Part shown: positions 28,359 through 58,760 of the stretch, piece after piece
Layout: each line of letters opens with the position of its first letter
How positions within the stretch are numbered: the stretch's first letter is position 1
Source of the DNA: an uncultured Marivita sp.
GTDB lineage: Bacteria > Pseudomonadota > Alphaproteobacteria > Rhodobacterales > Rhodobacteraceae
Direction: 5' to 3'
NCBI RefSeq assembly: GCF_947488135.1
Contig: NZ_CANKYW010000008.1
Span: 1 to 64,000 of the forward strand
Length of the DNA stretch: 64,000 bases
Notes under the pieces: generated by a model
The model's database searches: none
Seen by the model: only the letters and a program-made list of their open reading frames with translations
Told to the model about the DNA's origin: nothing
Translations under genes and position numbers: made by a program

Positions 28359-28531
28359 CGGTTTGTACCTCCCAGTTAAACCTCCACCGAAAGGATGCGA
28401 TTTTCGCACCTTTTTCAAGGCCCTTGCGCGCGATCGTCCCGGTGCGCGAAAATCCGGCGTGCACGGGGCCCCTTGCAATGGCGAATTCCCTCGGGGCAGA
28501 GTGCCGCTTGCCGAAGACGAAAGGACAGGCC

Positions 28532-30687: not shown

Positions 30688-30696
30688 CCGCGCGCT

Positions 30697-31581: not shown

Positions 31582-31822
31582 CTAACACCTCTGGAAACAA
31601 GGGCTTTTTCGGCACCTTACCCATAATCATGCAAAATCGGAATAGTTTGATGAAATGTTTGAATTGGCGCGGTGCGCGAATCTGTTCCTACGCTTGACGC
31701 ATGGGCACCCGCGTACCGAACCCACCCTCATCGCGCGAGATGCCAGTGAAGCCGCGACAAGAACGGCGCACCGGAAAAATGACAGGCCACGGCACGTGGC
31801 CGGAACCAACAGAGGAAACACC

Positions 31823-32788: not shown

Positions 32789-32808
32789 TCGCCCGGTCCT
32801 GACCAAAG

Positions 32809-32834
32809 GGGCATCGGTGAAACCGCCGATGCCC
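32809..32834 (+). other. Intercistronic hairpin after ABC binding-protein gene
   Basis: A perfect 9-bp inverted repeat (GGGCATCGG / CCGATGCCC) with an 8-nt loop lies between the binding protein and the ATPase genes. It is the third case in this window of a strong hairpin right after a solute-binding-protein gene. It has no T-run. Confidence 0.55.
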
Positions 32835-32861
32835 GCCAATCCCCTGACAAGGCGTGGGCTC

Positions 32862-33917: not shown

Positions 33918-35455
33918 ACAAGATGGACATCAACCCGCTCGAAGACACCGAAAGCGATGCCGCCCTCGCCTACGCCGAGGAACGGCGCGAAAACATCCGT
34001 ACCTTCGTCCGCACCAATCCGGACTACTATATCGCGAATTTCGACAAGATCGGCGCGTCCTCCCGCTTTACCCCAACGTTCAACCTCATGGCCGGGCTCT
34101 TCGGTCCGATCTGGTTCGGCGCGCGCGGGCTCTGGTCCTGGGCGCTGCCGTTCCTGATCCTTGAAGCCTTGGCCTTCGTGCAGATCGCACGCGGCCTCTT
34201 CGGCGATCTTGCGGCGGATGCGATGGCGCGCATCGCCTCCATCGAAGGCACGCTGGATCTGCGCCGCCAGCAGCTCGCCGCCGCGATCGAAAGCGGATCG
34301 GACCGGGTCGATGCGTTTCGCCGGACGGTGGAGTCGCTGGAAGCCAATATCGGCGGCATCCGCGACGAGGCTGACGCGCTGGCCGCGCAAGGCCCGACAA
34401 TCGTGCTGACCGGCATCGTCATTCTGATCCTGGCCAAAGCGGCACAGGCAACCGTCGCCAATTGGGCGCTCGAAGCGCGGTTCTCCGAATGGATGTCGGA
34501 TCGGTCGATCCGGTCGGGGCTGCCGGTCTCGCATATCGTCTTCAGCGCGATCTTCATGATCCTGATCGTGGCGACAGCCATGCTCCACTACAGCTTCCCG
34601 GGGCGCTATTCACTGCTCAGCGCCTTCCCGACCGATCCCGATATCCGCCTGACCAGCATCACATGGGTCGAGGATTTCATCGCGTGGTGCGTGCGCAACT
34701 CAGAAGCGTTCTTCGAAGGTCTGACCTTCGGCATCCGCACGCTTCTCGACGCGCTCGAGATCATTCTGGTGCAGACGCCGTGGATCGTGATCGCCAGCCT
34801 GATCATTCTGCTCACATGGCTTACCGCCGGGCTGCGAACGGCGATCTATTCCGGAGCATTCCTGGCGTACATGGGCCTGCTCGGTTTCTGGGAAGCCGCA
34901 ATGACGACACTGGCCTTGCTGGGCACTGCCGCCTGCCTGTCCATCGCCATCGGCATCCCGCTTGGCATGTTCGCCGCGCGGCGGCCCCGGTTCTATGCGT
35001 TCATCCAGCCGATCATGGACTTCATGCAGACCATGCCCGCCTTCGTGTTCATGGTCCCGGTCATCGCCTTTTTCGGCGTCGGCAAACCCGCCGCCGTGGT
35101 CGTCACGATGATCTTCGGCGGCACGCCCGTGGTGCGTCTGACCGTGCTCGGCCTGCGCGGCGTGCCCGAAAGCGTGCGCGAGGCGGCGATCAGTTTCGGC
35201 GCGAACAAGTGGTATCTGCTGACCAAGGTGGACCTGCCGCTGGCCAGCCCGTCGATCCGGGCAGGCATCAACCAGACAATCATGCTGTCGCTCGCCATGG
35301 TGGTGGTCGCCTCGCTCATCGGCGCCAAGGGGTTGGGCGAGGACGTGCTGGAGGCGCTGCAATACGCGAATGTCGGTCAAGGCATCCTTGCCGGGTTCGC
35401 GATCCTCTTCTGCGCCATGATCCTGGACCGCATTGTGCAGGGCGCCCGAAAATGA
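33914..35455 (+). CDS. Glycine-betaine-type ABC permease (ProW-like) with DUF2628-like N-terminal domain
   Basis: Protein of 513 aa, longer than ordinary ProW. Residues ~25-85 resemble the DUF2628 membrane domain (NLMAGLFGPIWFGARGLWSW). A ~60-residue helical, coiled-coil-like segment follows (LDLRRQQLAAAIESGSDRVD) and another helix. The binding-protein-dependent permease domain is C-terminal, with the EAA-loop GVPESVREAAISFGANKW. The permease forms the membrane channel with the ATPase. The N-terminal extension may sense membrane or osmotic state, but that is a guess. The stop overlaps the hydrolase ATG. Confidence 0.88.
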   Translation: MNKMDINPLEDTESDAALAYAEERRENIRTFVRTNPDYYIANFDKIGASSRFTPTFNLMAGLFGPIWFGARGLWSWALPFLILEALAFVQIARGLFGDLAADAMARIASIEGTLDLRRQQLAAAIESGSDRVDAFRRTVESLEANIGGIRDEADALAAQGPTIVLTGIVILILAKAAQATVANWALEARFSEWMSDRSIRSGLPVSHIVFSAIFMILIVATAMLHYSFPGRYSLLSAFPTDPDIRLTSITWVEDFIAWCVRNSEAFFEGLTFGIRTLLDALEIILVQTPWIVIASLIILLTWLTAGLRTAIYSGAFLAYMGLLGFWEAAMTTLALLGTAACLSIAIGIPLGMFAARRPRFYAFIQPIMDFMQTMPAFVFMVPVIAFFGVGKPAAVVVTMIFGGTPVVRLTVLGLRGVPESVREAAISFGANKWYLLTKVDLPLASPSIRAGINQTIMLSLAMVVVASLIGAKGLGEDVLEALQYANVGQGILAGFAILFCAMILDRIVQGARK

Positions 35456-36204
35456 CGCCGGTGGTTTTCGTCCACGGCTTCATGGGCGGCAGCCGACAAT
35501 GGACCGCACTCACCGCGTCCTTGCGCGGCACTGTCGATGTGATCGCGGTGGACCTGCCGGGGTTCGGAGAAAACGCCGACCTCGAAGCGCCCGACAGCAT
35601 CGCGGGCTTCGCCCGCTGGGTGATCGACGCTCTCAGCGCGCAGGGCATCCACCGGTTCCACCTGCTCGGCCACTCGATGGGCGGCATGATCGCGCAGGAA
35701 ATCGCGGCGACGGTGCCGGATCGAGTCTCGCGGTTGGTTCTTTATGGCACGGGGGCCACAGGCGTTCTGCCTGGCCGGTTCGAGACCATCGAGACGTCGA
35801 AATGGCGCGCGCAGTCGGATGGACCGCGCAAGACCGCGCGCCGCATTGCCGCCACCTGGTTTCTCGATCGCGAAGCCTCTCCCGCGTTCGAGGACTGCGC
35901 CGCCATCGCCGAACGCAGCAGCCTCCAGGCGATCACGGCGGGACTCGACGCGATGCAATCGTGGTGCGGCGTGTCCAATCTCGCATCCATCAAGGCCGCG
36001 ACGCTGGTGGTCTGGGGCGACCATGATCGCACCTACCCGTGGCGACAGACCGAACAGCTCTGGATGTCGATCCGCAACAGCGGGCTGGCGGTGCTTCCCA
36101 ATTGCGCCCACGCCGCGCATCTGGAAAAGCCCGAGATCTTCAACGGCATCCTGCGCGATTTCATGACCGCAGAGGTCGCCCAGCCCCAGCCCGTGGGTGG
36201 CTGA
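35452..36204 (+). CDS. Alpha/beta hydrolase
   Basis: Hydrolase of 250 aa with the canonical fold. It shows an oxyanion-hole HGFMGGSRQW motif, the nucleophile elbow GHSMGG with catalytic Ser near residue 85, the acid in WGDHDRTYPW and the His in NCAHAAHLEKPE. It resembles esterases and MhpC-type C-C hydrolases; the substrate is not evident. ATG 35452 overlaps the permease stop, so the imported compound may be its substrate or precursor. The 580-aa track ORF is an artefact of reading through the permease in another frame. Confidence 0.87.
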   Translation: MTPVVFVHGFMGGSRQWTALTASLRGTVDVIAVDLPGFGENADLEAPDSIAGFARWVIDALSAQGIHRFHLLGHSMGGMIAQEIAATVPDRVSRLVLYGTGATGVLPGRFETIETSKWRAQSDGPRKTARRIAATWFLDREASPAFEDCAAIAERSSLQAITAGLDAMQSWCGVSNLASIKAATLVVWGDHDRTYPWRQTEQLWMSIRNSGLAVLPNCAHAAHLEKPEIFNGILRDFMTAEVAQPQPVGG

Positions 36205-36215: not shown

Positions 36216-37733
36216 CTACCCCGCCGCAACAGCCCCGGCGTAGTGATCCCGCAAGACGTTTTTTTGCACCTTGCCCATCGTGTTGCGCGGCAGGGCGTCG
36301 ATGATTTCGTAACGGCGCGGGTGCTTGAACCGCGCCAGCTTATCCGCGACCTCGTTTTCCAGCGCCTCAACGGTCGGTGCATGCCCCGGCACCATCACCA
36401 CGGCGGCGATGATGGCTTCGCCGAAATCGGCATCCGGGACGCCGAACACAGCCGATTCCTCGACCCCGTCGATGTCGTTCAGAACGTCCTCCACCTCTTT
36501 CGGGTAGACGTTGTAACCTCCGGTGATGATCAGGTCTTTGGACCGACCGACAATCGACAAATAGCCGTCCTCGCTGAACTGACCCAGATCGCCGGTAATG
36601 AAGAACCCGTTTTCGCGCAGCTCGGCGGCAGTCTTGTCGGGCATTTGCCAGTAACCCTTGAAGACGTTCGGCCCCCGCACCTCGATCATGCCGACCTCGC
36701 CCTGCGGAAGCGGCTGGCCCGTTTCGGGATCGGTCACGATCACCTCGACCCCCGGCAACGGCTTTCCAACCGTGCCCGCCCGGCGGTCGCCATCATAAGG
36801 GTTGGAGGTGTTCATGTTGGTTTCGGTCATGCCGTAGCGTTCGAGGATGCGATGCCCGGTGCGCTGGGTGAAGGCGATATGCGTCTCGGCCAGCAGCGGC
36901 GCACTGCCCGACACGAACAGGCGCATGTTCGACGTCATTTCTCTGGTCAGCCGGTGATCGGCCAGCAGACGGGTGTAGAAGGTCGGAACGCCCATGAGCA
37001 TCGTCGCCTCGGGGACCGCCGCGAGGATCGCATCGGTGCTGAAACCGGGCATGAAATGCACGCAGGCCCCCGCATAAAGCGAAGTATTGAGCGCCACGAA
37101 AAGCCCATGCGTGTGAAAGATCGGCAGCGCGTGGATCAAGGTGTCGGCATCGGTGATGCGCCACAGCTCTGTCAGCGCCTTGGTGTTGGACAGCAGGTTG
37201 TCATGGGTCAGCATCGCGCCCTTCGACCGCCCCGTTGTCCCCGAGGTGTAGAGCAGCGCCGCCAAATCATCCGGCCCGCGCGGCACGGTGTCGAACGTGG
37301 TGGGCTTGTCCGGCACCGAGGCCATCAACGTCCCCTGCCCCGCCGCATCGAGCGTCAGGAGAATGGCCCCGGCCCTGTCGGCGATCCCGGTCAGCGTCTC
37401 CACCGAGGCCGGATCGCAGACCACGATCCGCGGCGTCGCGTCCTCCACGAAATAGGCCACCTCGTCCCGCTTGTAGGCGGTGTTGAGCGGTAGAAACACG
37501 CCCCCCGCCTGAAGCGTCGCGGCATAGAGTGCGACCATCTCAACGCATTTCGGCGCTTGCACCACCACGCGATCACCGGGTGTGAGGCCTGCGTCCCGCA
37601 ACACATGCGCGATCTGGGCGACAAGACCCACAAAGGCGGCATAGCTGATCGCGGGGGCATCATCCCGCTTCAGGAAACAGGCGTCATTGTCCGCGTGACG
37701 GGCGATAAGATGATCGTAGACGTGGTTCGCCAT
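36216..37733 (-). CDS. Malonyl-CoA synthetase (AMP-forming, MatB-like)
   Basis: Acyl-adenylate enzyme of 505 aa. The P-loop motif LLYTSGTTGRSKGAMLTH is near residue 160, the adenylate motif YGMTETNM near residue 300, and the C-terminal hinge GRSKDLIITGGYNVYPKE is followed by the catalytic-Lys tail NTMGKVQKNVLRD. Its resemblance to MatB, and the 1-bp overlap with a malonyl-CoA decarboxylase gene, point to malonate + CoA + ATP giving malonyl-CoA. Methylmalonate is a possible alternative substrate. Confidence 0.85.
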   Translation of the reverse strand: MANHVYDHLIARHADNDACFLKRDDAPAISYAAFVGLVAQIAHVLRDAGLTPGDRVVVQAPKCVEMVALYAATLQAGGVFLPLNTAYKRDEVAYFVEDATPRIVVCDPASVETLTGIADRAGAILLTLDAAGQGTLMASVPDKPTTFDTVPRGPDDLAALLYTSGTTGRSKGAMLTHDNLLSNTKALTELWRITDADTLIHALPIFHTHGLFVALNTSLYAGACVHFMPGFSTDAILAAVPEATMLMGVPTFYTRLLADHRLTREMTSNMRLFVSGSAPLLAETHIAFTQRTGHRILERYGMTETNMNTSNPYDGDRRAGTVGKPLPGVEVIVTDPETGQPLPQGEVGMIEVRGPNVFKGYWQMPDKTAAELRENGFFITGDLGQFSEDGYLSIVGRSKDLIITGGYNVYPKEVEDVLNDIDGVEESAVFGVPDADFGEAIIAAVVMVPGHAPTVEALENEVADKLARFKHPRRYEIIDALPRNTMGKVQKNVLRDHYAGAVAAG

Positions 37734-39010
37734 CAGGCCTGGATCCTTCGTTTCTTCTGGGCCGCCGCCGTCTCGCCCTTGAAGCCCGGGCTTTTCGAGA
37801 TGGCACGCTCCTGAACGAACCGCTCGTGGTTCTGCTCGATCAGGTTCAGATCGTATTCGTAATTCACCATCGCACCGGCCGATTGCCGAAGGCCGTTTTC
37901 CGACATATCGGCGGCACCGTGCACAGCGTAGATCTGCGCGCCATTGCCAAGGTGAAAGCGCGCTACCGGGTCACGCGGTGCGCCGTCCGGGGTTTTTGCC
38001 GACAGCAGATACCGCACTGCTGCCGTGCGGATCTCGTCGGGCGTGGCGGCGCCCTCGCGGATCGCGGCGTAATCCGGGGCGTCCTGTTCCTTGATCCACG
38101 CCATCAGGCCCGGAATCGGCGACAGCGTGACGTAGGTCTCCAGGCCCGGCAGTTCCTGCCGCAACTCGGCCACCACCTGTTTGATCAGAAGGTTGCCGAA
38201 GGATATCCCCTTGAGCCCCGCCTGGCAGTTCGAGATGGAATAGAAGACGGCGACCTTGGTGTCATGCGCCCGGCGCGTTTCACGGTCCTCGGTCAGCACG
38301 CTCTGGATCGACTCCGGCACCGATTGGGTGAGCGCCACTTCCACGAAGATCAGCGGCTCGTCCGGCATGGCCGGATGGAAGAACGCAAAGCAGCGCCGGT
38401 CGTCCGGGTAAAGGCGGCGGCGCAGGTCTTCCCAATCGCGGATGGCGTGGACCGCTTCGTATTTGACGATCTTCTCGAGGATACTGGCCGGGGTTTCCCA
38501 ACTGATCTGCCGCAGGACAAGGAACCCCCTGTTGAACCAGCTGCGCAGAAGGTGCTGGAAATCCATATCGGTGCGGGCCAGATCGGGTTCGTCCTTCACC
38601 GCTTTCAAGAGGTCGGTCCGCATGTTCACGAGAGCCAGCGTCGCGCCGGGCGCCTGGTTCAACCGGCGCAACAGCTCCTGCCGCCGGGGTTCGGCTTGGG
38701 TGGCGATGGTTCTGTAATCCCGCGCGTCACCGCTTGTCTTGTAGGCGGTGATCGCCGCGTCCAGCGCATCGAGGTCGATCTCGAGCCCGTCGTTGAGGAA
38801 CCGGAAGAACGCCAGCCGGTCCGCATCGGACATCCGCGTATAGCGATGGACGATGGCCTGCGCCAGAGTGATCCCGGACACCTCGCCCTCGGCGTCCAGA
38901 AGCGACGTGCACATCTCTTCGATCGACCGGTCATCGCTCACCCGGGACGTGGCCCGCCGCCGCTCGAACAGCGTGTTGAGCATGTCACCAAGGAAACTGC
39001 GTTCGGACAT
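37733..39010 (-). CDS. Malonyl-CoA decarboxylase (MatA/MCD family)
   Basis: Malonyl-CoA decarboxylase family protein of 425 aa. The helical N-terminal domain (residues ~30-140) is followed by the GNAT-like catalytic domain. MCD-typical stretches are LLRSWFNRGFLVLRQISWET, YPDDRRCFAFFHPAMPDEPL and VFYSISNCQAGLKGISFGN, the last containing the region of the catalytic Ser. It converts malonyl-CoA to acetyl-CoA and CO2. It is coupled to matB downstream and preceded 4 bp upstream by a YciI-like gene. Confidence 0.9.
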   Translation of the reverse strand: MSERSFLGDMLNTLFERRRATSRVSDDRSIEEMCTSLLDAEGEVSGITLAQAIVHRYTRMSDADRLAFFRFLNDGLEIDLDALDAAITAYKTSGDARDYRTIATQAEPRRQELLRRLNQAPGATLALVNMRTDLLKAVKDEPDLARTDMDFQHLLRSWFNRGFLVLRQISWETPASILEKIVKYEAVHAIRDWEDLRRRLYPDDRRCFAFFHPAMPDEPLIFVEVALTQSVPESIQSVLTEDRETRRAHDTKVAVFYSISNCQAGLKGISFGNLLIKQVVAELRQELPGLETYVTLSPIPGLMAWIKEQDAPDYAAIREGAATPDEIRTAAVRYLLSAKTPDGAPRDPVARFHLGNGAQIYAVHGAADMSENGLRQSAGAMVNYEYDLNLIEQNHERFVQERAISKSPGFKGETAAAQKKRRIQA

Positions 39011-39014
39011 GATG

Positions 39015-39401
39015 TCAGTCGAACCTCACATTTTGCGCCGAAAGCGCCACGGAAAAGGTCAGCGACCCTTCGTTGATCAGCCAGCGGCGCAGCACGAAAC
39101 TGCGCGCTCCGTTGGCGTGCATCGGATCGGCTTCGGCCAAGGCGCGGGCGTCGTCGATCGAAGCCGCACGGTAGATAATGAGACCGATGCCCTTCATCAA
39201 CTCCCCCGTCTCGTCCGAAACCGGCCCGGCAAGGAACAAAGCCCCCCGCGCTTCAAGCTCGGCCTGATAGGCCAGATGCGCGGGCAGCGTTTCCTTGACC
39301 TTGGCCGGATCACCGCCAGGCGTCGAAAGAACCATGTAAAGCTCGTGGGCCAACGCCCCCCGCGCGCGGGCCTCGGCGGCGTATTCAGTCCAGCTGGGCA
39401 T
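39015..39401 (-). CDS. YciI-like protein
   Basis: Small ferredoxin-fold protein of 128 aa. The YciI core is DKAPAHLAYQ-like (here LPAHLAYQAELEARGALFLAGP), followed by GIGLIIYRAASIDDARALAEADPMH with conserved Asp-Pro-His region. YciI relatives resemble muconolactone isomerase, and some act as isomerases or dehydratases on lactones. It is first in the minus operon YciI-matA-matB and divergent from the FAH/dioxygenase operon. Its presence hints at a ring-cleavage lactone or enol intermediate, but catalysis is not demonstrated. Confidence 0.75.
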   Translation of the reverse strand: MPSWTEYAAEARARGALAHELYMVLSTPGGDPAKVKETLPAHLAYQAELEARGALFLAGPVSDETGELMKGIGLIIYRAASIDDARALAEADPMHANGARSFVLRRWLINEGSLTFSVALSAQNVRFD

Positions 39402-39422
39402 GTGGTTCTCCGGTGATTTTCA

Positions 39423-39443
39423 AAAATATCGATTTTATTTGAC
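39423..39443. promoter_or_regulatory. Regulatory element shared with the GntR promoter (site 1)
   Basis: An AT-rich 21-bp stretch beginning AAAATATCGATT and ending TTGAC lies in the 92-bp divergent region between the YciI-matAB operon and the FAH operon. By direct comparison it matches 19 of 21 positions with the reverse complement of 45831-45851, upstream of the GntR gene. It is probably an operator, possibly including a -35-like TTGAC. Confidence 0.6.
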
Positions 39444-39480
39444 TTGATGCTTGTTTATCGTCAAAAATTGAGTCGATCAA
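39438..39480. promoter_or_regulatory. Inverted repeats in the divergent promoter region
   Basis: Two inverted repeats follow the shared element: TTTGAC-N16-GTCAAA (39438-39465) and TTGA-gtcga-TCAA (39468-39480). They end just before the AAGGAG ribosome site of the FAH gene. They are plausible regulator or RNA-polymerase contact sites for the two divergent operons. Confidence 0.4.
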
Positions 39481-39493
39481 CAAGGAGTTTGAT

Positions 39494-40378
39494 ATGCGTT
39501 TTCTCGTTGGCACCGTCGGTGACGTGCAGAGTGTCTTCGCCATTGAGGGCGATCGGGCCACCAATCTCACCTCCGCCGTGGCCGGGATCGGGTGTGATCT
39601 GTCCGCGCTCGCTGCATCTCCTGACCTTGTGGCGCAGGCGAAAGCCGCGCTAGGCGCGGGCGACACCCTGTCCGTAGCCGACATCACGCCGGCGCTGCCG
39701 ATCACGACTCCGGGCAAGTTCATCTGCCTTGGCCTGAACTATGTCGAGCATATCAAGGAAGGCGGATACGACATCCCCGATTATCCCGCGCTTTTCATGC
39801 GCGGCCACAATTCGCTGATGCCCGCCGGGGCACCGATGGTGCGTCCGTCCTGTTCCGAAAAGCTCGATTACGAGGCCGAGCTTTTGCTGATCATCGGCAA
39901 GGGCGGACGTCACATCCCCGAAGACAGGGCGCTCGATCACGTTTTCGGCTATACCGTGTTCAATGATGGCTCTGTCCGCGACTACCAGCGAAAGACGCAC
40001 CAGTGGACGCCCGGCAAGAACTTCGATGACACCGGCGCCGTGGGACCGATCGTCGTTACACCGGAAGAACTGCCCGAGGGCGCCAGCGGGCTGAAGATCG
40101 AAAGCCGCGTCGGCAACGAGATCCTGCAATCGTCCAATACGTCGAACATGATCTGGGGCGCGGCGCGCTCCATCGCGATTATCTCGGAATACACGACGTT
40201 GCATCCGGGCGATCACATCGCGCTCGGTACGCCCCCGGGTGTCGGCCACGCCAAGAAGCCTGACCCGCGCTGGCTGCGCCCCGGCGAGACCATCGAGATC
40301 GAGATCGAAGGCATCGGCATTTGCGCCAGCCCGGTAATCGACGAAGACACCGTGGCCAGCAGAACGGCGGCCGAATGA
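39494..40378 (+). CDS. Fumarylacetoacetate hydrolase family protein (acylpyruvate hydrolase-like)
   Basis: FAH-family enzyme of 294 aa with an N-terminal accessory domain (residues 1-65) and the catalytic domain starting ICLGLNYVEHIKEGG. Metal-binding residues are in SCSEKLDYEAELLLIIG, and YTVFNDGSVRDYQ and LGTPPGVGHAKKP are typical. The family breaks C-C bonds of beta-diketo acids or hydrates/decarboxylates related compounds. AAGGAG precedes the ATG. It heads the operon FAH-reductase-TRAP-dioxygenase, divergent from malonate genes, so it may release a malonyl unit (inference). The stop overlaps the next gene. Confidence 0.87.
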   Translation: MRFLVGTVGDVQSVFAIEGDRATNLTSAVAGIGCDLSALAASPDLVAQAKAALGAGDTLSVADITPALPITTPGKFICLGLNYVEHIKEGGYDIPDYPALFMRGHNSLMPAGAPMVRPSCSEKLDYEAELLLIIGKGGRHIPEDRALDHVFGYTVFNDGSVRDYQRKTHQWTPGKNFDDTGAVGPIVVTPEELPEGASGLKIESRVGNEILQSSNTSNMIWGAARSIAIISEYTTLHPGDHIALGTPPGVGHAKKPDPRWLRPGETIEIEIEGIGICASPVIDEDTVASRTAAE

Positions 40379-41040
40379 TGGCGGACGGACAGGACAATAT
40401 GACTGACCTGCGCCGGCGCGCCCAACAGGCGGTGCGCGATCTGCGCGCGCGCAAGCCGCAACTGGATGACGCCTCCATCGACGTGATTCTGCGCGACGCC
40501 CGTTCGCACTACGCCTGGACCGACAAACCGGTCAGCGACGAGATGCTGCACACCCTTTTCGAGATCACGATTCAGGGGCCGACCAGCATGAACACCTGCC
40601 CCGCCCGCTTCGTCTTCGTGCGCAGCGACGCGGCCAAGGATCGTTTGGCGAAATCGCTCAAGGCCAAGAACATCGACAAGATGCGCGCGGCCCCCGTGAC
40701 CGCGATCATCGCATGGGATCCGCTTTATTGGCAGCGGCTGGATTTCCTCTTCCCGCACGAGGACCGCAAACCGCTGTTCGAAGGCAAGAAAGAGTATGCC
40801 CACGACACCGCGTTCCGCAATTCCACGCTGCAAGGCGCGTATTTCATGATCGCCGCCCGCGCGATGGGGCTCGATGTGGGGGCGATGTCGGGGTTCTCCA
40901 ACAAGATCGTGGACGAGGAGTTCTTTGCGGACAACGGATGGAAATCGAATTTTCTGTGTAACATCGGCTACGCGGACGAAACCGCGTTGTTCCAGAAACT
41001 TCCGCGTTTCGAATTCGATGACGTGTGCAAGGTGATCTGA
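40375..41040 (+). CDS. Nitroreductase-family protein resembling RutE (malonic semialdehyde reductase)
   Basis: FMN-dependent nitroreductase-fold protein of 221 aa. Its core parallels RutE: ARSHYAWTDKPVSDEMLHTL, the GPTSMNTCPARFVFV motif, VTAIIAWD, DTAFRNSTLQGAYFMIAARA, GLDVGAMSGF and the terminal LPRFEFDDVC. RutE in uracil catabolism reduces malonic semialdehyde to 3-hydroxypropionate; no other rut genes are here. The start at 40375 overlaps the FAH stop (ATGA), with alternatives at 40378 and 40399. Neighbouring malonate genes make a C3 semialdehyde substrate plausible; an aromatic nitro or quinone substrate cannot be excluded. Confidence 0.8.
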   Translation: MMADGQDNMTDLRRRAQQAVRDLRARKPQLDDASIDVILRDARSHYAWTDKPVSDEMLHTLFEITIQGPTSMNTCPARFVFVRSDAAKDRLAKSLKAKNIDKMRAAPVTAIIAWDPLYWQRLDFLFPHEDRKPLFEGKKEYAHDTAFRNSTLQGAYFMIAARAMGLDVGAMSGFSNKIVDEEFFADNGWKSNFLCNIGYADETALFQKLPRFEFDDVCKVI

Positions 41041-41151
41041 AGCAAGACAACGCCGGGGAGGGCGGTACGACCACGCTCATCCGAAACGGGATGATGCCTG
41101 ACTGAACAAATACGATCCGGGCGAAAAGCCCAACTTTCTGGGAGGAAATAC

Positions 41152-42225
41152 ATGAAACATACGACGAAACGCAGCCTGATGGGCGCGGCACTGGCGACCG
41201 TGATGGCGCTGCCCGCCGTGGCACAGGAAAAAATCTCGGCGGTCGTGATCGACGGCTATCCGGCCCGCGCGCTCTGGGTTGAGGAGTTCACCAACTTCTT
41301 CATCCCCGAAGTCAATCGCCGCCTGTCCGAGACCGGCAATTACGAGATCGAATGGCAGGAAAACTACGGCGGTTCCATCGTGAAGCCGCGCGGCGTGCTG
41401 GAAGGCATCCAGCTCGGTCTCGGCGATATCGGCATCGTCACCACGATCTTCCATTCGTCCAAGCTGCCCAGCCAGGGGATCGCCGGATCGACACCGTTCG
41501 TGTCCTCCGATGCGCGCGCCGTGGCCAAGGCCGTTGACGAAATCGCCCGCGAATTTCCGGCCATGAACAACGAGTTCAACGCGCAGAACCAGGTCTATCT
41601 GGCCACCGGCGTCGTGCTCGACACCTATCAGGTGTTCTGTTCGTCCGAAGTGTCCTCGGTCGCGGACCTCGAAGGCAAGAAGATCGCCGGTGCGGGCGTG
41701 AACCTGCGCTACCTCGAAGGCATCGAAGGCGCCGCGGGCGTGCGCGGGGGTCTCACCGATTTTTACAACATGGTGCAGACCGGCCTCGTGGATTGCGCGA
41801 TGCTGTGGCCCGAAGCGGCCTCGACATTCAAGATCGCCGAAGTGGCGCCCTACATGCTCGAAGCCGATCTGGGCGCGGTGAACACCAAGACCGTGACCGT
41901 GAACGCCGATTACTGGGAGAACCTCCCGGATGAGGTCAAAGAGGTGCTGCAAGCCGTCGCCATCGACTACCGCGACCACGTGGCCGGCATCGCCATGGAT
42001 CTCGCCCAAACGTCGCGCAACACCTATGTCGAGCAAGGCGGCACGATTGTCGAACTCTCGGACGAAGACCGCGCGGCCTGGGCCAACGGTATGCCGAACA
42101 TCGCGCAGGAATGGGCCGAAACGCTGAACAACAGCGGTGAACCCGGCACCGAGATGCTGGCGGCCTATCTGGGCAAGCTGTCCGAAGCCGGCTTTGACGG
42201 CGTTCGTGACTGGACAGCCGAATAA
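41152..42225 (+). CDS. TRAP transporter substrate-binding protein (DctP family)
   Basis: Periplasmic binding protein of 357 aa with signal peptide (MGAALATVMALPAVAQEK) and GGGAGGAAA directly upstream of ATG 41152. It is a longer DctP type, with YGGSIVKPRGVLEGIQLGLGDIG and the specificity region SVADLEGKKIAGAGVNLRYLEG. It is part of the dioxygenase operon, so it probably captures an aromatic or hydroxylated acid that the cluster degrades. A 111-bp gap separates it from the RutE-like gene. Confidence 0.9.
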   Translation: MKHTTKRSLMGAALATVMALPAVAQEKISAVVIDGYPARALWVEEFTNFFIPEVNRRLSETGNYEIEWQENYGGSIVKPRGVLEGIQLGLGDIGIVTTIFHSSKLPSQGIAGSTPFVSSDARAVAKAVDEIAREFPAMNNEFNAQNQVYLATGVVLDTYQVFCSSEVSSVADLEGKKIAGAGVNLRYLEGIEGAAGVRGGLTDFYNMVQTGLVDCAMLWPEAASTFKIAEVAPYMLEADLGAVNTKTVTVNADYWENLPDEVKEVLQAVAIDYRDHVAGIAMDLAQTSRNTYVEQGGTIVELSDEDRAAWANGMPNIAQEWAETLNNSGEPGTEMLAAYLGKLSEAGFDGVRDWTAE

Positions 42226-42257
42226 AGCCAAGCGGCGATCCGAAAGAGGTCACACCC

Positions 42258-42809
42258 ATGCTGAAGTCTGCCGTTGCTGGCGTATCTCGGGTCGCCAATA
42301 CCCTTGCCATCGCGTCCAACGCCCTGGGCACCCTCGTGGTGCTGGCGTTGGTCGTCATCCTGAACGTCGACGTGATCGCCCGCGGGGTGTTCTCGGCCCC
42401 GATCAAGGGCACGTATGAGATGGTGCAGTTTTCCGTCGTATTGATCGTGTTCCTGCAACTGGCCGACGTGGTCCGGGTGGACCGGCTGACCCGGTCCGAC
42501 GGTTTTCTGAACGTGGTACACAAAAGACGCCCCCGGATCGCCGCGAACATGCGGCGGATCATCAACGCGATCTCGGCCATCTTCATGGGTTTGATCGCCT
42601 ACATCACCTTCCCCGAGTTTCTGCACATGTGGGACACGCAGGATTACTTTGGCGTGCCGGGCCTGTTCACCCTGCCCTGGTGGCCGGTGAAGCTCGTCAT
42701 CACATTGGGCACGGCGCTGTCCTGCCTGATCTTCGTGCTCAAGGTGATCGCGGGCAAAGACCGCTCGGAGCTGGTGCGCACGCCCGAACATGACGAGTCC
42801 TCGCAATGA
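42258..42809 (+). CDS. TRAP transporter small membrane subunit (DctQ family)
   Basis: DctQ-type protein of 183 aa with four hydrophobic helices, including VVLALVVILNVDVIARGVFS and YEMVQFSVVLIVFLQLADVV. It is slightly longer than the subunit at 2117, with a loop before the third helix (NVVHKRRPRIAANMRRIIN). It overlaps dctM by 4 bp and is co-transcribed with the binding protein. Confidence 0.9.
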   Translation: MLKSAVAGVSRVANTLAIASNALGTLVVLALVVILNVDVIARGVFSAPIKGTYEMVQFSVVLIVFLQLADVVRVDRLTRSDGFLNVVHKRRPRIAANMRRIINAISAIFMGLIAYITFPEFLHMWDTQDYFGVPGLFTLPWWPVKLVITLGTALSCLIFVLKVIAGKDRSELVRTPEHDESSQ

Positions 42810-44110
42810 CCCCTATCGAGATCGGCCTCATCTCGGTCGTCGCCATCGTCTTCCTGATCTATTCGGGCGTCTACATCCCCGTCGCGCTTGGCATGGTGTC
42901 TTTCGTGTCGATCTGGCTGATGCGGGACAACTTCACGCTGGCGCTGAACCTGCTCAAAGTGGCGGTCGGCGACAGCGCGATGGAGTACAGCTTCGCCACC
43001 ATCCCGCTATTCACCTTCATGGGACTGATCGTCTCCAAAGCCGGGCTGGGTCGCGATATCTACGAGGTCATGACCATGCGCTTCCGCAAGGTCAAAGGCG
43101 GGATCGGCATGGCGACCGTGGGCGCAAACGCGGTGTTCGCGGCCGTGACCGGATCATCCATCGCGTCGGCCTCGGTCTTTACCAAGGTGTCGGTGCCGCA
43201 GATGATGGCGCAGGACTACAACCCGCGCTTCGCGGTCGGGGTCGTGGCCGGATCGTCGGTGCTGGGCATGATCATTCCGCCGTCGGCGATGCTCATCATC
43301 TATTCCTTCGTGGCCGAACAATCGGTCGGCGACATGTTCCTGGCCGGTGTCATCCCGGGCATCCTGCTGGCCATCGCCTATGTCGCCGCGATCTGGTTCA
43401 TGGGCCGCTTCACGCCGGGCTTCGTCGGCGGACGGGTGGTCGAAGACACCGAGTGGATGACAGGCCGCGAGATTGCGTCCAAGACGTTGCCGACCCTGTT
43501 CCTGATCACCGTGGTTCTGGGCGGCATCTACACAGGCTGGCTCACCGCGGTCGAGGCTGGCGCCGCCGGGGCGCTTGTTGCGCTGATCATCGCGTTCTTC
43601 CGCAAGTCCATGACGCCCAAGGCGTTCTGGCACGCGCTGCTCGAAACCGGTCACATCACCGCAGCGATCCTCTTCCTGATCACCGCCGCGTCGATCTACA
43701 GCCGGATGCTGGGACTTGCCGGGTTGCCGAACCAGCTCGAAGACCTGCTTGCGGGCAGTTCGGCATCATTCTGGACGGTCATGCTGCTTTACGTGCTGCT
43801 GATGCTCTTTCTCGGCACGCTTCTAGATACCGCGTCGATCATCCTGATTGTTGTTCCGCTGTTCCTGCCGCTGGCCGAGGCGCTGGATATGTCGCTGATC
43901 TGGTTCGGGATCATCACCGTGGTCGGCGCGGAAATCGGACTGCTGACGCCCCCGCTGGGCATATCGTGTTTCGTCATCAAATCGACCATCGACGATGACC
44001 GCATCTCACTCAAGGACGTGTTCATGGGCGCCCTGCCCTTCGCCTTCGTGATGCTGATCGTCCTCTTCATCCTGATCGAATTTCCGATCCTCAGCCTTGC
44101 CCTCATCTAA
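42806..44110 (+). CDS. TRAP transporter large permease subunit (DctM family)
   Basis: DctM permease of 434 aa with about 12 membrane segments. Conserved pieces are IPLFTFMGLIVSKAGLGRDIY, AAVTGSSIASASVFTKVSVP, SSVLGMIIPPSAMLIIYSF and the C-terminal GLLTPPLGISCFVIKS. It forms the ion-coupled channel with the DctQ at 42258. The intradiol dioxygenase gene follows after 11 bp, directly linking uptake to ring cleavage. Confidence 0.94.
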   Translation: MTPIEIGLISVVAIVFLIYSGVYIPVALGMVSFVSIWLMRDNFTLALNLLKVAVGDSAMEYSFATIPLFTFMGLIVSKAGLGRDIYEVMTMRFRKVKGGIGMATVGANAVFAAVTGSSIASASVFTKVSVPQMMAQDYNPRFAVGVVAGSSVLGMIIPPSAMLIIYSFVAEQSVGDMFLAGVIPGILLAIAYVAAIWFMGRFTPGFVGGRVVEDTEWMTGREIASKTLPTLFLITVVLGGIYTGWLTAVEAGAAGALVALIIAFFRKSMTPKAFWHALLETGHITAAILFLITAASIYSRMLGLAGLPNQLEDLLAGSSASFWTVMLLYVLLMLFLGTLLDTASIILIVVPLFLPLAEALDMSLIWFGIITVVGAEIGLLTPPLGISCFVIKSTIDDDRISLKDVFMGALPFAFVMLIVLFILIEFPILSLALI

Positions 44111-44121
44111 GGAGTGATCTC

Positions 44122-44991
44122 ATGCGCGACGTCACCAAGGACAACATCACCGACGTCTTCATGGGCTATATGGGCCCCGACATGGACCCGCGCCTGCGCG
44201 AGGTTCTGAGCAGCCTCGTCCGCCACCTGCACGACTTTGCCCGCGAGGTGAACCTGACGCACGAGGAATGGAACAAAGGCATCGCGTTCCTCGAAGCCGC
44301 CGGTGAGATCTCGGACAAGGAGCGGCACGAATTCGTACTGCTTTCGGATGTGCTGGGCCTGTCGTCACTGGTCGATATGCTGCATTCCAACCCAGAGGGC
44401 ACGTCATCCTCGGTGCTGGGGCCGTTTCACATCACCGGCTCTCCGCCGCTGCCGCTGGGTGGCGATCTGCGCAAGGATTTCGACGACACGGTGCTGCTGG
44501 TCGAAGGCATGATCCGCGACACCGACGGCAAGCCCATCCCGGGTGCGACGCTCGACATCTGGCAGACCGCCCCGAACGGGCTTTATTCCAGCCAGGATCC
44601 CGATCAGGACACCTACTCCTTCCACGGCATCCAAACCGTCGGCGATGATGGCCGCTACCGGTTCACCTCGGTGCGCCCGGTGGAATACACCGTGCCCTCC
44701 GATGGTCCGGTTGGCGACATCCTGCGGGCCTGCGGCCGCCACCCGTGGCGTCCGTCACACCTGCATTTCATCGTGGAAGCCGACGGCTTCAAACCGTTGG
44801 TGACAGAAGTGTTCGCCGCCGATGATCCCTATCTCGATCAGGATACGGTCTTCGGCGTGCGCAAGGACCTTGTCATGTCCTATGAACACATGCCCGCAGG
44901 CAGTTTCCCGGATCAGGGGTTCGAGCTTTCCGGCAAGGTCGATGACCCCTACCTCAGGGTCGAATTCGACCTGACGCTCGTTAAGCAATAA
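44122..44991 (+). CDS. Intradiol ring-cleavage dioxygenase (hydroxyquinol/catechol 1,2-dioxygenase family)
   Basis: Non-heme Fe(III) dioxygenase of 289 aa. The N-terminal helical dimerisation domain (residues 1-95) precedes the beta-sandwich catalytic domain. Likely iron ligands are Tyr in NGLYSSQDP, Tyr in RPVEYTVPSDGPVG and two His in RPSHLHFIV. The YTVPSDGPVG context and length favour hydroxyquinol-type enzymes over simple catechol dioxygenases. No maleylacetate reductase lies nearby, which would be expected for classical hydroxyquinol degradation. It is last in its operon and converges on the GntR gene. Confidence 0.9.
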   Translation: MRDVTKDNITDVFMGYMGPDMDPRLREVLSSLVRHLHDFAREVNLTHEEWNKGIAFLEAAGEISDKERHEFVLLSDVLGLSSLVDMLHSNPEGTSSSVLGPFHITGSPPLPLGGDLRKDFDDTVLLVEGMIRDTDGKPIPGATLDIWQTAPNGLYSSQDPDQDTYSFHGIQTVGDDGRYRFTSVRPVEYTVPSDGPVGDILRACGRHPWRPSHLHFIVEADGFKPLVTEVFAADDPYLDQDTVFGVRKDLVMSYEHMPAGSFPDQGFELSGKVDDPYLRVEFDLTLVKQ

Positions 44992-45009
44992 TCGCCGTAA
45001 CCGCCCGGT

Positions 45010-45690
45010 TCAGGACAACACGCCGTCGCCCATGAGACCGGACAGGAACGCACCGGTCGTCCGGTAGTGGTTCAACAAGTCGGTGCTGGCCTCTTCCGCA
45101 TTGCGCGCGATGGCCGCGTTCAGGATGCGGGTATGCTCGTCGCTCACATCCCGGCGTTGGTAGTTCAACGCGTTCCCGGCCAGAAACCTGTAGCGGATGT
45201 TCAGATCGTAAAGCTGCGAACAGAATTTCAGCAGGATCGGCGACTTCGCACCGGCGAGCAACGCCATGTGAAACGCCTTGTGATGTGCCTCGAACGTGGC
45301 TGCATCCGTCTCGCGTGCGCGGTGCATCCTGTGATGCGCCAGAACGATCCCCTCTTCCCAGGCCTCGGTGGCGTTGGCGATGCTCTCGCGCAAAGCCAGG
45401 TCTTCGAGGTTGCAGCGCAACATCAGGATCTCGTCGAAATTCGCCTTGCTCACCTCGGCGGTGCGGAACCCGCGCTGGTCGATGCGTTCAACAAGGTTGT
45501 CTGATGTCAGAAGGCTCAGCGCCTCGCGGATGGGCGATGCCCCGGTATCAAGACGTTTGCGCAGCCCGTCGATCTTGAGCTTTTCGCCCGGCTTCAATTC
45601 GCCCGTCACGATCATGTTGCGCAAAGAGACATAGGCGCGATGGGTGGCGGAACCCTCTTCTGTCTCGACGTCCAGATTGACGATGTTCAT
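45010..45690 (-). CDS. GntR-family transcriptional regulator (FCD domain)
   Basis: Regulator of 226 aa. The winged helix (residues ~10-75) reads LRNMIVTGELKPGEKLKIDG and GASPIREALSLLTSDNLVER. The all-helical FCD domain has probable metal ligands in FEAHHKAFHMALLAG and VSDEHTRILNAAI. ATG 45690 is likelier than the in-frame GTG at 45699. It faces the dioxygenase gene, and a 21-bp element near its promoter is repeated at the divergent catabolic promoter at 39.4 kb. It therefore probably controls both operons of that cluster and itself. Confidence 0.88.
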   Translation of the reverse strand: MNIVNLDVETEEGSATHRAYVSLRNMIVTGELKPGEKLKIDGLRKRLDTGASPIREALSLLTSDNLVERIDQRGFRTAEVSKANFDEILMLRCNLEDLALRESIANATEAWEEGIVLAHHRMHRARETDAATFEAHHKAFHMALLAGAKSPILLKFCSQLYDLNIRYRFLAGNALNYQRRDVSDEHTRILNAAIARNAEEASTDLLNHYRTTGAFLSGLMGDGVLS

Positions 45691-45830
45691 GGTCGACACG
45701 TTCCCGGATTAGCACAAAACCCCCGCCGTGAGGCGAAAGTAGCGCGGTCAATGCAAGTCGCAAAGCGAATGCCCGGTCAACTGCATCAACAGGCTCATTC
45801 ATTTCCTTTTTCTAGATATAAAGACGATAC

Positions 45831-45973: not shown

Positions 45974-46657
45974 TTACACGACCTTGACGGTCAGCGATCC
46001 AACGCCCTCGATGGTCGCTTCCATCACGTCGCCCTTGACCACCGCGTTCACGCCCGACGGTGTGCCGGCCATGATGACGTCGCCTGCGGCCAGTTCGAAA
46101 TACTCCGACAGGTAGGAAATCATTTCCGGAACCTTCCAGATCATCTGGTTCAGGTCGCCCTCCTGACGCAGCTCCCCGTTCACGTTCAGCGCGATGCGTC
46201 CCTGATCCGGATGCCCGACCTCGGACACCGGCAGCAAGGGGCCAACCGGGCCGGAGCGTTCGAAGGCTTTGCCGATCTCCCACGGGCGGCCCATCTTCTT
46301 CATCTCGCCCTGCAAATCGCGCCGCGTCATGTCGAGCGACACGCCATACCCCCAGACATGATCGAGCGCCTTGTCGAGCGGGATGTCGGTGCCGCCGGAT
46401 TTCAGGCCGACCAGCAACTCCACCTCGTGATGCACATCGGACGTGTGCGGCGGATAGGGAAATTCGCCCGACGCATCGAGGTTGTTGGGGTTCTTCTGGA
46501 AGAAAAACGGCGGCTCGCGATCGGGATCGTGGCCCATTTCCACGGCGTGCGCCGCGAAGTTGCGGCCGATGCAATAGACGCGCCTGACGGGGAATGTGCC
46601 TCCGCCCTGCGTTGGAATGGTGTGCACCTGCGGCGCGGGAATGACATGATCGGACAT
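45974..46657 (-). CDS. Fumarylacetoacetate hydrolase family protein (fumarylpyruvate hydrolase-like), copy B
   Basis: FAH-fold hydrolase of 227 aa, clearly a paralogue of 13985-14671: both share FPVRR.YCIGRN, FFFQKNPNNLD, PYPPHTSDVHHE, DMTRRDLQG and DLNQMIWKVPEMISYLSEYF. Its active-site layout is intact. ATG 46657 follows GAGGAGG on minus; the track start adds five residues. It ends in a strong terminator and lies downstream of a FadR-type regulator on the same strand, 158 bp away. It probably cleaves an acylpyruvate such as fumarylpyruvate. Confidence 0.88.
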   Translation of the reverse strand: MSDHVIPAPQVHTIPTQGGGTFPVRRVYCIGRNFAAHAVEMGHDPDREPPFFFQKNPNNLDASGEFPYPPHTSDVHHEVELLVGLKSGGTDIPLDKALDHVWGYGVSLDMTRRDLQGEMKKMGRPWEIGKAFERSGPVGPLLPVSEVGHPDQGRIALNVNGELRQEGDLNQMIWKVPEMISYLSEYFELAAGDVIMAGTPSGVNAVVKGDVMEATIEGVGSLTVKVV

Positions 46658-46815
46658 CGCTTTCCTCCTCAAGCGTTTCGTTGCAAAGGGACCGGGTCAA
46701 ACGCGCTCTGCGTCACACTCAGAATCCCTCACGGCCCGACCAACCCGGCGCAGCCGTCACCCATTTAATCACGAACTTCCCGCGGAATTTGCAAGGTTTC
46801 CACGCTGCAACCCGT

Positions 46816-47529
46816 TCAACCATTTCCCGAATTGGTTGGATTTTGGCGCGTCATCTCGTGCGGTGCGCCGTTCGGCAGAACCCGCGAATAAACCGATTTG
46901 AGATGCGTGAGCATCGCCTGCGCCGCAAGCTCGGCGTCACCGGCACCGATGGCCGAGACGATGACATCGTGCTCATAGAAGCTGGTATATTCCTCGGGCG
47001 GTTTGCGCGTCATGCGTGGCTGGCCCCAGACGATCGACCGGCGCACCGCGTTCAGCGTTTCGAAGAAGTAGAGAAACAGCTGATTCCGCGTCGCGCGGGC
47101 GATGGCGTGGTGCAGATTGTTGTCCCACGCCTCGTAAGACCGCCAGTCTTCGGCCTCCCGGCAGCGTTGGGCGCAAAGCCGCATTTGTTCGCGATCCGAA
47201 CGCGTTGCCTGAAGCGCGGCCATGCGGCACAGCTGCGGTTCGATGGTAAAACGCACGGCCACCACCTGCTCTGGTTTGATCTGGTCGCCAAGATAGGTGA
47301 CGTCCTGCAAATTCAGCACCGGGCGCGAGCCAACGAAGGTGCCCCGCCCCACGTGCCGCCAGATGCGCCCCTGCGCCTCGAGCTCATCAAGGGCCTTGCG
47401 CAGTTGGTTCCGTGTCGTGCCCAGCATCTTGCACAATTCCCGCTCCGGCGGCACCCGATCATTGTGCCGGTATCCCGCCGTGTCGATCAATTCCCGCAAC
47501 TTGTGCGCCAGATCGGTATTCGAGGTCAT
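46816..47529 (-). CDS. GntR-family transcriptional regulator, FadR subfamily (FCD domain), copy B
   Basis: Regulator of 237 aa. The winged helix contains DRVPPERELCKMLGTTRNQLRK and the wing IWRHVGRGTFVGS; the FCD domain contains DNNLHHAIARATRNQ and YEHDVIVSAIGAGDAE. ATG 47529 gives a natural start; the 359-aa track version runs back through the promoter. It resembles the regulator at 14851, and both are adjacent to paralogous FAH genes. It is divergent from the FAH-ABC-Ldh operon at 47670, which is its likely target. Confidence 0.86.
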   Translation of the reverse strand: MTSNTDLAHKLRELIDTAGYRHNDRVPPERELCKMLGTTRNQLRKALDELEAQGRIWRHVGRGTFVGSRPVLNLQDVTYLGDQIKPEQVVAVRFTIEPQLCRMAALQATRSDREQMRLCAQRCREAEDWRSYEAWDNNLHHAIARATRNQLFLYFFETLNAVRRSIVWGQPRMTRKPPEEYTSFYEHDVIVSAIGAGDAELAAQAMLTHLKSVYSRVLPNGAPHEMTRQNPTNSGNG

Positions 47530-47533
47530 ATTC

Positions 47534-47563
47534 CGCCCAATTTGATGATTGGTTGATTGATCG
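47534..47563. promoter_or_regulatory. Candidate operator between FadR copy B and FAH gene
   Basis: CGCCCAATTTG (47534-47544) and GTTGATTGATCG (47552-47563) recur from the copy-A promoter at 14765-14785. Here they enclose an inverted repeat CCAAT-N6-ATTGG. The site is 5 bp upstream of the regulator start on minus. Confidence 0.5.
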
Positions 47564-47669
47564 AAACCGTAAGACGACGAAACATGGATGGAAAGGGGAG
47601 AGGTGTCAGTGAGTCGCGCATCACGTCGCGCGGCAATCACGTGACACCAACACGAGGGAGGATCGCCGG

Positions 47670-48557
47670 GTGCGATTGGCAACCATTTCTGTGGATGGAG
47701 ACCCCATCTGCGTTGCGTATCTGTCAGACGGCAGCATGTTGAACATTTCCGAAGCCGCAGGCTCGATGCAGGCGTTGATCGAGGGCGGGAAACCGGCGCT
47801 TGATGCCGCCCGCAAGCTCGTGTCCGAAGCCGAGGACGGCCAGCACCAGGATAAGGTGATCCGGCAGAACGCCACGCTGATGGCGCCGATTCCAAAGCCG
47901 CTGAAGAACGTCTTTTGCGTCGGCCGCAACTATGCCGAGCACATTGCCGAAGGCGACCGGGCGCAAAACCAGAAGGTCGGCGTGACGGAACATCCCGTCT
48001 TCTTCACCAAGCCGCCGACCGCGGTTGTCGCACCCGATGGCGATGTCCTGCTCTTTCCCGAAGTGTCCACTTCCATCGACTACGAGGTCGAATTGACCGT
48101 GGTGATCGGCACGCCGGGCCGCAACATTTCCAAAGCGGATGCGATGGATCACATCTTCGGGTATACGATCCTCAACGACATCACCGCACGCGACATCCAG
48201 CGCCGCCACGGTGGGCAGTATTTCAAGGGCAAGGGGCTCGATGGCTCCTGCCCCATCGGTCCGGTCATCGTGACCGCCGACGAAATCGACGACCCGCACG
48301 CCCTGTCCATCGGCCTCACGGTCAATGGCGAACAGCGTCAGGACGGGAACACGAAGGACATGATCTTCGACATTCCGACGCTCATCGCATCCCTGTCCGA
48401 GGGGCTGACGCTCGAACCCGGCGACATGATCGCCACCGGCACACCGTCGGGCGTGGGCTATGCGATGGATCCGCCGCAGTTCCTCAAGGACGGCGACACT
48501 GTGATATGTAAAGTTTCCGGAATCGGCACGCTCAGCAACACTGTACGCGCCGTATAA
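47670..48557 (+). CDS. Fumarylacetoacetate hydrolase family protein (two-domain type)
   Basis: FAH-family protein of 295 aa with an N-terminal domain (residues 1-80) and a catalytic domain from VFCVGRNYAEHIAEGD. Metal-site residues lie in STSIDYEVELTVVIG, and DITARDIQRRHGGQYFKGKGLDG and ATGTPSGVGYAMDPP match the family. It starts with GTG 47670 after GAGGGAGGA. It begins an operon with an NMT1-like ABC transporter and an Ldh-type dehydrogenase. Likely activities are acylpyruvate hydrolysis or 2-oxo-hept-3-ene-dioate-type chemistry. Confidence 0.86.
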   Translation: MRLATISVDGDPICVAYLSDGSMLNISEAAGSMQALIEGGKPALDAARKLVSEAEDGQHQDKVIRQNATLMAPIPKPLKNVFCVGRNYAEHIAEGDRAQNQKVGVTEHPVFFTKPPTAVVAPDGDVLLFPEVSTSIDYEVELTVVIGTPGRNISKADAMDHIFGYTILNDITARDIQRRHGGQYFKGKGLDGSCPIGPVIVTADEIDDPHALSIGLTVNGEQRQDGNTKDMIFDIPTLIASLSEGLTLEPGDMIATGTPSGVGYAMDPPQFLKDGDTVICKVSGIGTLSNTVRAV

Positions 48558-48617
48558 AGGCCCCGCCGCTGCGGAAAGCGGCCAAAAGGGTCAGACACGA
48601 TTGGGAGGAGAACCATC

Positions 48618-58665: not shown

Positions 58666-58711
58666 GGCACCGAAAACCAGACCTAAGGAGGCACGAGCAG
58701 AAGCCGACAAA

Positions 58712-58760
58712 AGAAAAGCCCCCCAGGAGTCTCCCGGAAGGCCCTTCTCAATCTTCGCAC
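58712..58760 (-). ncRNA. Probable antisense (incA/ctRNA) between repB and repC
   Basis: In repABC plasmids a short antisense RNA from this gap represses repC. On minus I see TTGACA (58789-58794), a 17-nt spacer and CTATCT (58766-58771) as a promoter. A transcript of about 45-50 nt would end in a hairpin built on GGAG/CTCC and GCC/GGC, followed by TTTTCTTTT at 58709-58717. Position, size and terminator fit the family. The exact ends are estimated. Confidence 0.65.

Follow-up and report, generated by a model that had tools for sequence, protein, structure and literature searches.

The window analysed here is a stretch of 64,000 nucleotides from an uncultured Marivita sp. (contig NZ_CANKYW010000008.1), in which a gene cluster brings together an intradiol dioxygenase (its gene being designated idx in this work), an FAH-superfamily hydrolase, a TRAP transport system and the genes for malonyl-CoA synthetase (matB) and malonyl-CoA decarboxylase (matA). 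Comparative genomics indicates that this cluster is a real, conserved pathway unit, and the link between ring cleavage, the FAH protein and malonyl-CoA metabolism is well supported by the genomes compared. The outcome of the pathway would quite probably be malonyl-CoA. On balance, and with somewhat less confidence, the cluster appears to encode the central, lower section of a pathway for aerobic breakdown of an aromatic compound, the ring-cleavage substrate of which would most likely be 1,2,3,5-tetrahydroxybenzene or its oxidised form, 2,6-dihydroxybenzoquinone, the tetrahydroxybenzene being the best single guess. The cluster is composed of the following features:

36216-37733, minus strand: matB, malonyl-CoA synthetase (NCBIfam NF005702, 774.5 bits, cut-off 558)
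37733-39010, minus strand: matA, malonyl-CoA decarboxylase (Pfam MCD, 1.8e-94, and MCD_N)
39015-39401, minus strand: YciI-like small protein (Pfam YCII PF03795, 1.6e-12)
39402-39493, no strand: divergent promoter region between the operons (direct reading of the sequence)
39494-40378, plus strand: FAH-superfamily hydrolase (Pfam FAA_hydrolase PF01557, 2.3e-62)
40378-41040, plus strand: RutE-like reductase of FMN nitroreductase fold (NF003768, malonic semialdehyde reductase, 264 bits, cut-off 152)
41152-42225, plus strand: TRAP solute-binding protein DctP (family match)
42258-42809, plus strand: TRAP small permease DctQ (family match)
42806-44110, plus strand: TRAP large permease DctM (family match; 70-98% identity between clusters)
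44122-44991, plus strand: idx, hydroxyquinol-type intradiol dioxygenase (Dioxygenase_N and Dioxygenase_C)
45010-45699, minus strand: GntR/FCD regulator (Pfam GntR and FCD)

All genes that the first-pass annotation of this DNA had named in two divergent operons were recovered in place with strong family matches. The operons are tightly packed, with yciI-matA-matB on the minus strand and FAH-rutE-TRAP PQM-idx on the plus strand: matA and matB, which share one operon, overlap at 37733, the FAH gene and rutE overlap at 40378, and gaps of 4 bp and 11 bp separate yciI from matA and the large permease gene from idx, respectively. The gntR gene extends to 45699, which is 9 bases past the limit of the stretch initially delimited (36216-45690). 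In the Marivita genome matA is present as a single copy.

Conservation of the cluster and its malonate genes

Conservation was surveyed within the family, with a single genome for each genus (298 genomes), and, by a GTDB genome scan, in 354 relatives, 80 of which were retrieved. Within the family, an idx orthologue (at least 55% identity, and at least 68% for most) was present in about 41 of the 298 genomes, other intradiol dioxygenases showing at most 48% identity. The relatives from the GTDB scan belonged to the Rhodobacteraceae/Roseobacteraceae, the Stappiaceae (Roseibium), Pelagibius and the Granulosicoccaceae, with one Thioalkalivibrio-labelled genome, so that gammaproteobacteria are included. 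Once duplicates had been removed, 110 loci were left, and the full core, defined as yciI, rutE, the genes for TRAP P and M, and idx, was kept in 89 of them; the recurrence of this arrangement in about 90 genomes rules out chance. Among the 71 FAH-type clusters with enough flank, gntR was found in 68, and an osmC-like gene, missing from the Marivita window, was found between rutE and the TRAP genes in 59.

The same-cluster presence of matA and matB was recorded in 43 and 39 of these 71 clusters, respectively. Across the family, matA was detected in 38 of the 41 genomes with idx versus 73 of the 257 others (Fisher p = 1.8e-15; the sampled genomes are related, and p-values in this work overstate independence and serve as a guide only). 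Isolated FAH-idx pairs were also found (FAH-idx-flavin monooxygenase in L114, from the Granulosicoccaceae, FAH-idx-gntR in L077, and a second pair in L117), and the FAH protein therefore seems to be tied to the dioxygenase product.

The presence of DctPQM, matA, matB and GntR genes is shared with the matPQMAB/matABC systems of malonate catabolism (Sinorhizobium, Rhizobium), the matPQMAB operon having been reported for E. meliloti (PMC5237526). The cluster could accordingly be read as an operon for malonate uptake and use, like that of Sinorhizobium meliloti, adjoining an aromatic set by chance. This is very improbable, given that the TRAP genes belong to the dioxygenase operon, on the strand opposite to matAB, and accompany rutE and idx in every one of the 89 core clusters, with or without matAB. 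A function of the TRAP genes as malonate importer was rejected on the same ground. In the Marivita cluster, unlike in those systems, malonate would arise inside the cell from an aromatic ring, and the TRAP system is tied to the dioxygenase.

Exchange of FAH and MatB for a DRE-TIM gene

In 14 genomes of the family that lack the FAH gene, an HMGL/DRE-TIM gene encoding about 403 amino acids, nearest to isopropylmalate and homocitrate synthases, is carried instead, and adjoins the cluster in most of them. The 89 core clusters comprise 78 with FAH, 8 with the DRE-TIM gene, none with both and 3 with neither; two of these last three (L038 and L057) have the DRE-TIM gene elsewhere, on the same contig in the case of L038. 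The exclusion extends to whole genomes, since an FAH orthologue was found in none of the 14 DRE-TIM carriers (best paralogues about 35-46% identical) and the DRE-TIM gene in none of the 23 FAH-cluster genomes tested. The exchange also involves matB, which is present in none of the 7 DRE-TIM clusters with enough flank versus 39 of the 71 FAH clusters (p = 0.012), and which is absent genome-wide, at E <= 1e-100, from three DRE-TIM carriers (G185, G057 and G049). In contrast, matA is kept in 6 of these 7 DRE-TIM clusters, and retains its place beside yciI even without matB and FAH.

When mapped on the idx tree, the exchange between FAH and DRE-TIM amounts to 8 changes, at least 7 of which are forced by well-supported branches. 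This repeated one-for-one exchange makes FAH plus MatB, acting via malonate, and the DRE-TIM enzyme look functionally equivalent and interchangeable. The simplest reading is perhaps that FAH and MatB would lead to malonyl-CoA via free malonate, and that the DRE-TIM enzyme would yield malonyl-CoA directly. In the DRE-TIM protein, the synthase motif FxHxSGIH is replaced by NFIRESGIGI, with loss of both histidines (including the catalytic one), and its score stays under every NCBIfam synthase cut-off. Its assignment as an ordinary 2-isopropylmalate or homocitrate synthase was rejected because of the loss of both histidines; the protein probably does not act as a normal condensing synthase with acetyl-CoA, and we infer that it uses CoA.

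A more specific model, put forward tentatively and considered doubtful in its entirety, is that a bacterial 1,2,3,5-tetrahydroxybenzene central pathway would occur in two forms that can replace each other. One would be hydrolytic, with FAH, MatB and MatA acting by way of free malonate; the other would depend on CoA, and in it a DRE-TIM metalloenzyme devoid of the synthase histidines would thiolytically cleave 2,4-dioxoadipate to pyruvate and malonyl-CoA. We know of no such reaction in the DRE-TIM superfamily. The route that had been proposed from the Marivita sequence keeps its central part: the linking of ring cleavage, FAH and malonyl-CoA is backed by the conserved clusters, the co-occurrence of matA, the lone FAH-idx pairs and the exchange of FAH and matB for the DRE-TIM gene.

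Decaying forms of the cluster were also observed: idx is in two separate pieces in L070, genes are disrupted in L062, and in G013 (C1:2578027-2579454) fragments of matA and of the DRE-TIM gene lie side by side, idx standing alone.

Candidate substrate and proposed route

All polyhydroxybenzenes were enumerated for the products of an intradiol cleavage followed by an acylpyruvase cut. Only 1,2,3,5-tetrahydroxybenzene gave pyruvate and malonate; pentahydroxybenzene, the only other source of malonate by the same two cuts, gave hydroxypyruvate and malonate. The chemistry on which the first-pass annotation had based its route from tetrahydroxybenzene to malonate is right by this enumeration.

In the route proposed here, the TRAP system would import the tetrahydroxybenzene, its quinone or a close precursor, and the RutE-like flavoprotein would act as a quinone-to-hydroquinone reductase that keeps the compound reduced as the tetrol; such a quinone reduction would fit the uptake of anionic 2,6-dihydroxybenzoquinone. 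The dioxygenase, whose reaction type is given by its family, would open the ring of this presumed substrate to 2,4-dihydroxymuconate or its lactone or keto form. The YciI-like protein might then convert the primary product, by isomerisation or hydrolysis, to 2,4-dioxoadipate, or handle the quinone or lactone. As suggested by its family, fold, residues and genome context, the FAH protein would cut 2,4-dioxoadipate (malonylpyruvate) into pyruvate and malonate, and MatB followed by MatA, strongly supported by family, would convert malonate to malonyl-CoA and then to acetyl-CoA. The GntR protein would regulate the unit, and in some relatives the DRE-TIM enzyme, in place of FAH and MatB, may release malonyl-CoA directly.

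The nearest proteins to the FAH protein, by sequence and by predicted fold (pLDDT 80), are YisK, L-2,4-diketo-3-deoxyrhamnonate hydrolase and fumarylpyruvate hydrolase, and these neighbours act on 2-oxo or 2,4-dioxo acids. Residues H86, E89, E127, E129, D158, Q165 and K175 are invariant in relatives, and correspond, by motif rather than by pairwise alignment, to the catalytic residues H30, E33, E71, E73, D102, Q109 and K123 of FAHD1 (PMC7056447); two of the ten FAHD1 positions differ, R25 being replaced by L81 and K47 probably by R103. The FAA_hydrolase domain, the fold and the FAHD1-type residues (with the two differing positions just mentioned) are those of an acylpyruvate hydrolase. L-2,4-diketo-3-deoxyrhamnonate hydrolase and the acylpyruvase FAHD1 belong to the same superfamily, with a conserved His-Glu lid pair, conserved metal ligands and a fold match of TM about 0.8; their co-product is lactate or other acids, whereas that of the cluster enzyme would be malonate. 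For the RutE-like protein, the best solved relative is IstO, and the part of the window that was scanned gave no match to any other rut gene family. In the YciI-like protein, H42 and the motif D92-P-M-H95 are conserved in relatives.

The iron ligands of the dioxygenase (Y155, Y189, H213 and H215) are invariant in 14 aligned sequences, and its nearest solved relatives are hydroxyquinol dioxygenases. A variant hydroxyquinol route can be derived from this likeness, in which idx would form maleylacetate, the RutE-like protein would replace maleylacetate reductase to give 3-oxoadipate, the FAH protein would produce succinate (or fumarate) and acetate, and matAB would have a separate duty. RutE-like enzymes are flavin reductases, and a replacement would be needed, as the classical maleylacetate reductase is missing: an orthologue is absent from the whole Marivita genome, where the best match is a 34%-identical iron alcohol dehydrogenase, which extends to the genome the initial claim that the classical hydroxyquinol route is incomplete. 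Such an orthologue is also absent in 34 of 36 idx genomes, the other two having true orthologues; as a control, the reductase gene lies directly beside a 37%-identical dioxygenase in L069. In a sister group of the dioxygenase (46% identity), pairing with a 3-oxoadipate:acetyl-CoA acetyltransferase again speaks for 3-oxoadipate. This variant, however, gives no reason for the enrichment of matA in idx genomes or for its position beside yciI without matB and FAH, leaves the joint loss of FAH and matB unexplained, and is judged unlikely.

The sister group is represented by L067, where the dioxygenase is linked to HpaB, a reductase (a small flavin-reductase-like gene), a PcaD-like hydrolase and the acetyltransferase (BKACE; 492 bits, cut-off 350), and by L068, which has part of this set (HpaB and the PcaD-like hydrolase). 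It looks like a different, little-described lower pathway. In L080 (8015-10870), where the cluster FAH is missing, idx stands beside BKACE-like and SMP-30-like genes, which might represent a third means of splitting the ring-cleavage product.

The malonate link could also be right with another ring substrate, such as a substituted, halogenated, methoxylated or amino tetrol analogue, pentahydroxybenzene or a quinone-fed ring. Relatives of the YciI-like protein include the dehydrochlorinase TftG, a member of the YciI family, and lineage-specific neighbours are found in a few loci: a DesA-like O-demethylase near idx (L055), a flavin monooxygenase (L114), and a PehA-like sulfatase with a TAXI-TRAP system and a monooxygenase (L155). 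These modules are rare, and the upstream genes vary far more between clusters than the core does, as would be expected if one central intermediate were common to all; this alternative is given a low probability. No single peripheral (upstream) module is conserved among the clusters, and such a combination of constant core and changing feeders is the pattern expected of a central pathway.

Among these feeders, the monooxygenase of L114 is of MhpA type and has a 61%-identical relative in L155 with the TAXI-TRAP system and the PehA-like sulfatase, and in L055/L156 the DesA-like, syringate-type O-demethylase occurs with a TAXI-TRAP system and a sulfatase. The TAXI-TRAP and PehA-like sulfatase module recurs in L155 (237-7700, with the flavin monooxygenase), L156 (11423-17926, with the DesA-like O-demethylase) and L077 (9362-12061), and idx is near it in L077 and L156. 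The module is a possible feeder from sulfated or methoxylated phenolics.

Several points weigh against tetrahydroxybenzene and malonate as substrate and product. The dioxygenase resembles several hydroxyquinol dioxygenases to about the same degree, and its substrate is therefore not readable from sequence. The FAH superfamily also holds decarboxylases and isomerases, and the nearest fold match is YisK. No tetrol-making hydroxylase was found near the cluster in the Marivita genome, and the L114 monooxygenase has no close homologue in that genome at the threshold used. The roles given to the YciI-like, RutE-like and OsmC proteins are guesses; for YciI this follows from there being no significant sequence relative among solved structures. 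To these is added the relatedness of the sampled genomes, noted above. Finally, clusters without matAB, which the first-pass annotation had set down as contradicting its route, do occur: 28 of the 71 FAH clusters are without matA within the flank seen. A matA-matB pair was nevertheless found elsewhere in the genome in 7 of 8 FAH-type genomes without local matAB, the eighth (G072) having matB but no matA.

The window is part of a 183-kb contig with ParA, RepB and RepC genes (window 56540-59982), and the cluster therefore sits on a repABC-type replicon (plasmid or chromid) and may be mobile. Directly adjoining it (45974-52381) are a second FAH gene (45977-46672, with a 74%-identical copy at 13985-14671), a GntR gene, a third FAH gene (47670-48557), an NMT1-type ABC transporter and an Ldh_2 dehydrogenase; in L137 and L143, too, the FAH-GntR-FAH-Ldh set is a neighbour of the idx cluster. 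On the other side, a ProX-type glycine-betaine-like ABC system with an alpha/beta hydrolase (31655-36204) converges on matB, and an HMGL-like lyase and a class III CoA-transferase with a LysR regulator are located at 28424-31581. In several other genomes a second TRAP system with an HbpS-like and a cupin-like protein adjoins the cluster (L110, 11890-16193; L157, 2803-6979), and a metallo-beta-lactamase-fold protein recurs near it (L036, 3353-4417, and 11 other loci).

Known systems and biological meaning

A central pathway through 1,2,3,5-tetrahydroxybenzene was reportedly described in fungi by Martins et al. in 2024, with a gene cluster that is said also to hold an FAH-like hydrolase, a monooxygenase and a small protein. 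The proposed fungal ring opener is a DUF3500 protein, with 5-hydroxydienelactone as its product (PMC12388069), and according to a 2026 paper the tetrahydroxybenzene central pathway seems to be confined to fungi and has thus far been seen in them alone (PMC13094099). The proposed ring-cleavage substrate is the same as for the Marivita cluster, and an FAH-like hydrolase beside the ring opener is likewise seen in the FAH-idx pairs of L114, L077 and L117 and in the 78 FAH-type core clusters, a likeness in gene kind. The ring opener differs, as the Marivita cluster would use an intradiol dioxygenase, and so do TRAP import, the RutE-like and YciI-like proteins and the clustered matAB. DUF3500 (PF12006) is absent from the Marivita genome and from 24 of 29 idx genomes, and in the other 5 no match lies on the contig of the cluster. 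On this comparison, the cluster would be a bacterial version of the tetrahydroxybenzene pathway with a different ring opener.

The classical hydroxyquinol pathway uses an intradiol dioxygenase of the same family and has a maleylacetate reductase, whereas the Marivita cluster has FAH and malonyl-CoA genes instead. In the tft branch of 2,4,5-T degradation, comprising TftG, a benzoquinone reductase, TftH and TftE, with a described TftG reaction (PMC3975901), a small protein of TftG type, a quinone reduction and the cleavage by a hydroxyquinol dioxygenase come one after another, which recalls the protein kinds of the Marivita cluster; that branch ends in maleylacetate and 3-oxoadipate, and the Marivita cluster would end in malonate. 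In the literature searched, which covered few subscription journals, no description was found of the cluster, nor of malonylpyruvate, dioxoadipate or dihydroxymuconate in catabolism. The initial statement that no description of the route was known stands for the bacterial cluster within that literature; the chemistry, with a tetrahydroxybenzene central pathway already described in fungi, is not wholly new.

In the usual description, the pathways by which bacteria degrade aromatic compounds converge on a small number of ring-cleavage intermediates. Malonate inhibits succinate dehydrogenase, and this would therefore explain the coupling of matAB to the unit, which, if the proposed route is true, would be a natural source of intracellular malonate. 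Two enzyme activities are predicted by the model: an acylpyruvase that forms malonate and a DRE-TIM lyase that depends on CoA. If true, a conserved tetrahydroxybenzene-to-malonate unit of many marine Rhodobacteraceae, Stappiaceae and some gammaproteobacteria would represent a further central pathway, one that PMC13094099 describes as confined to fungi, and could help explain the use of gallate-, syringyl- or phloroglucinol-type phenolics by marine bacteria.

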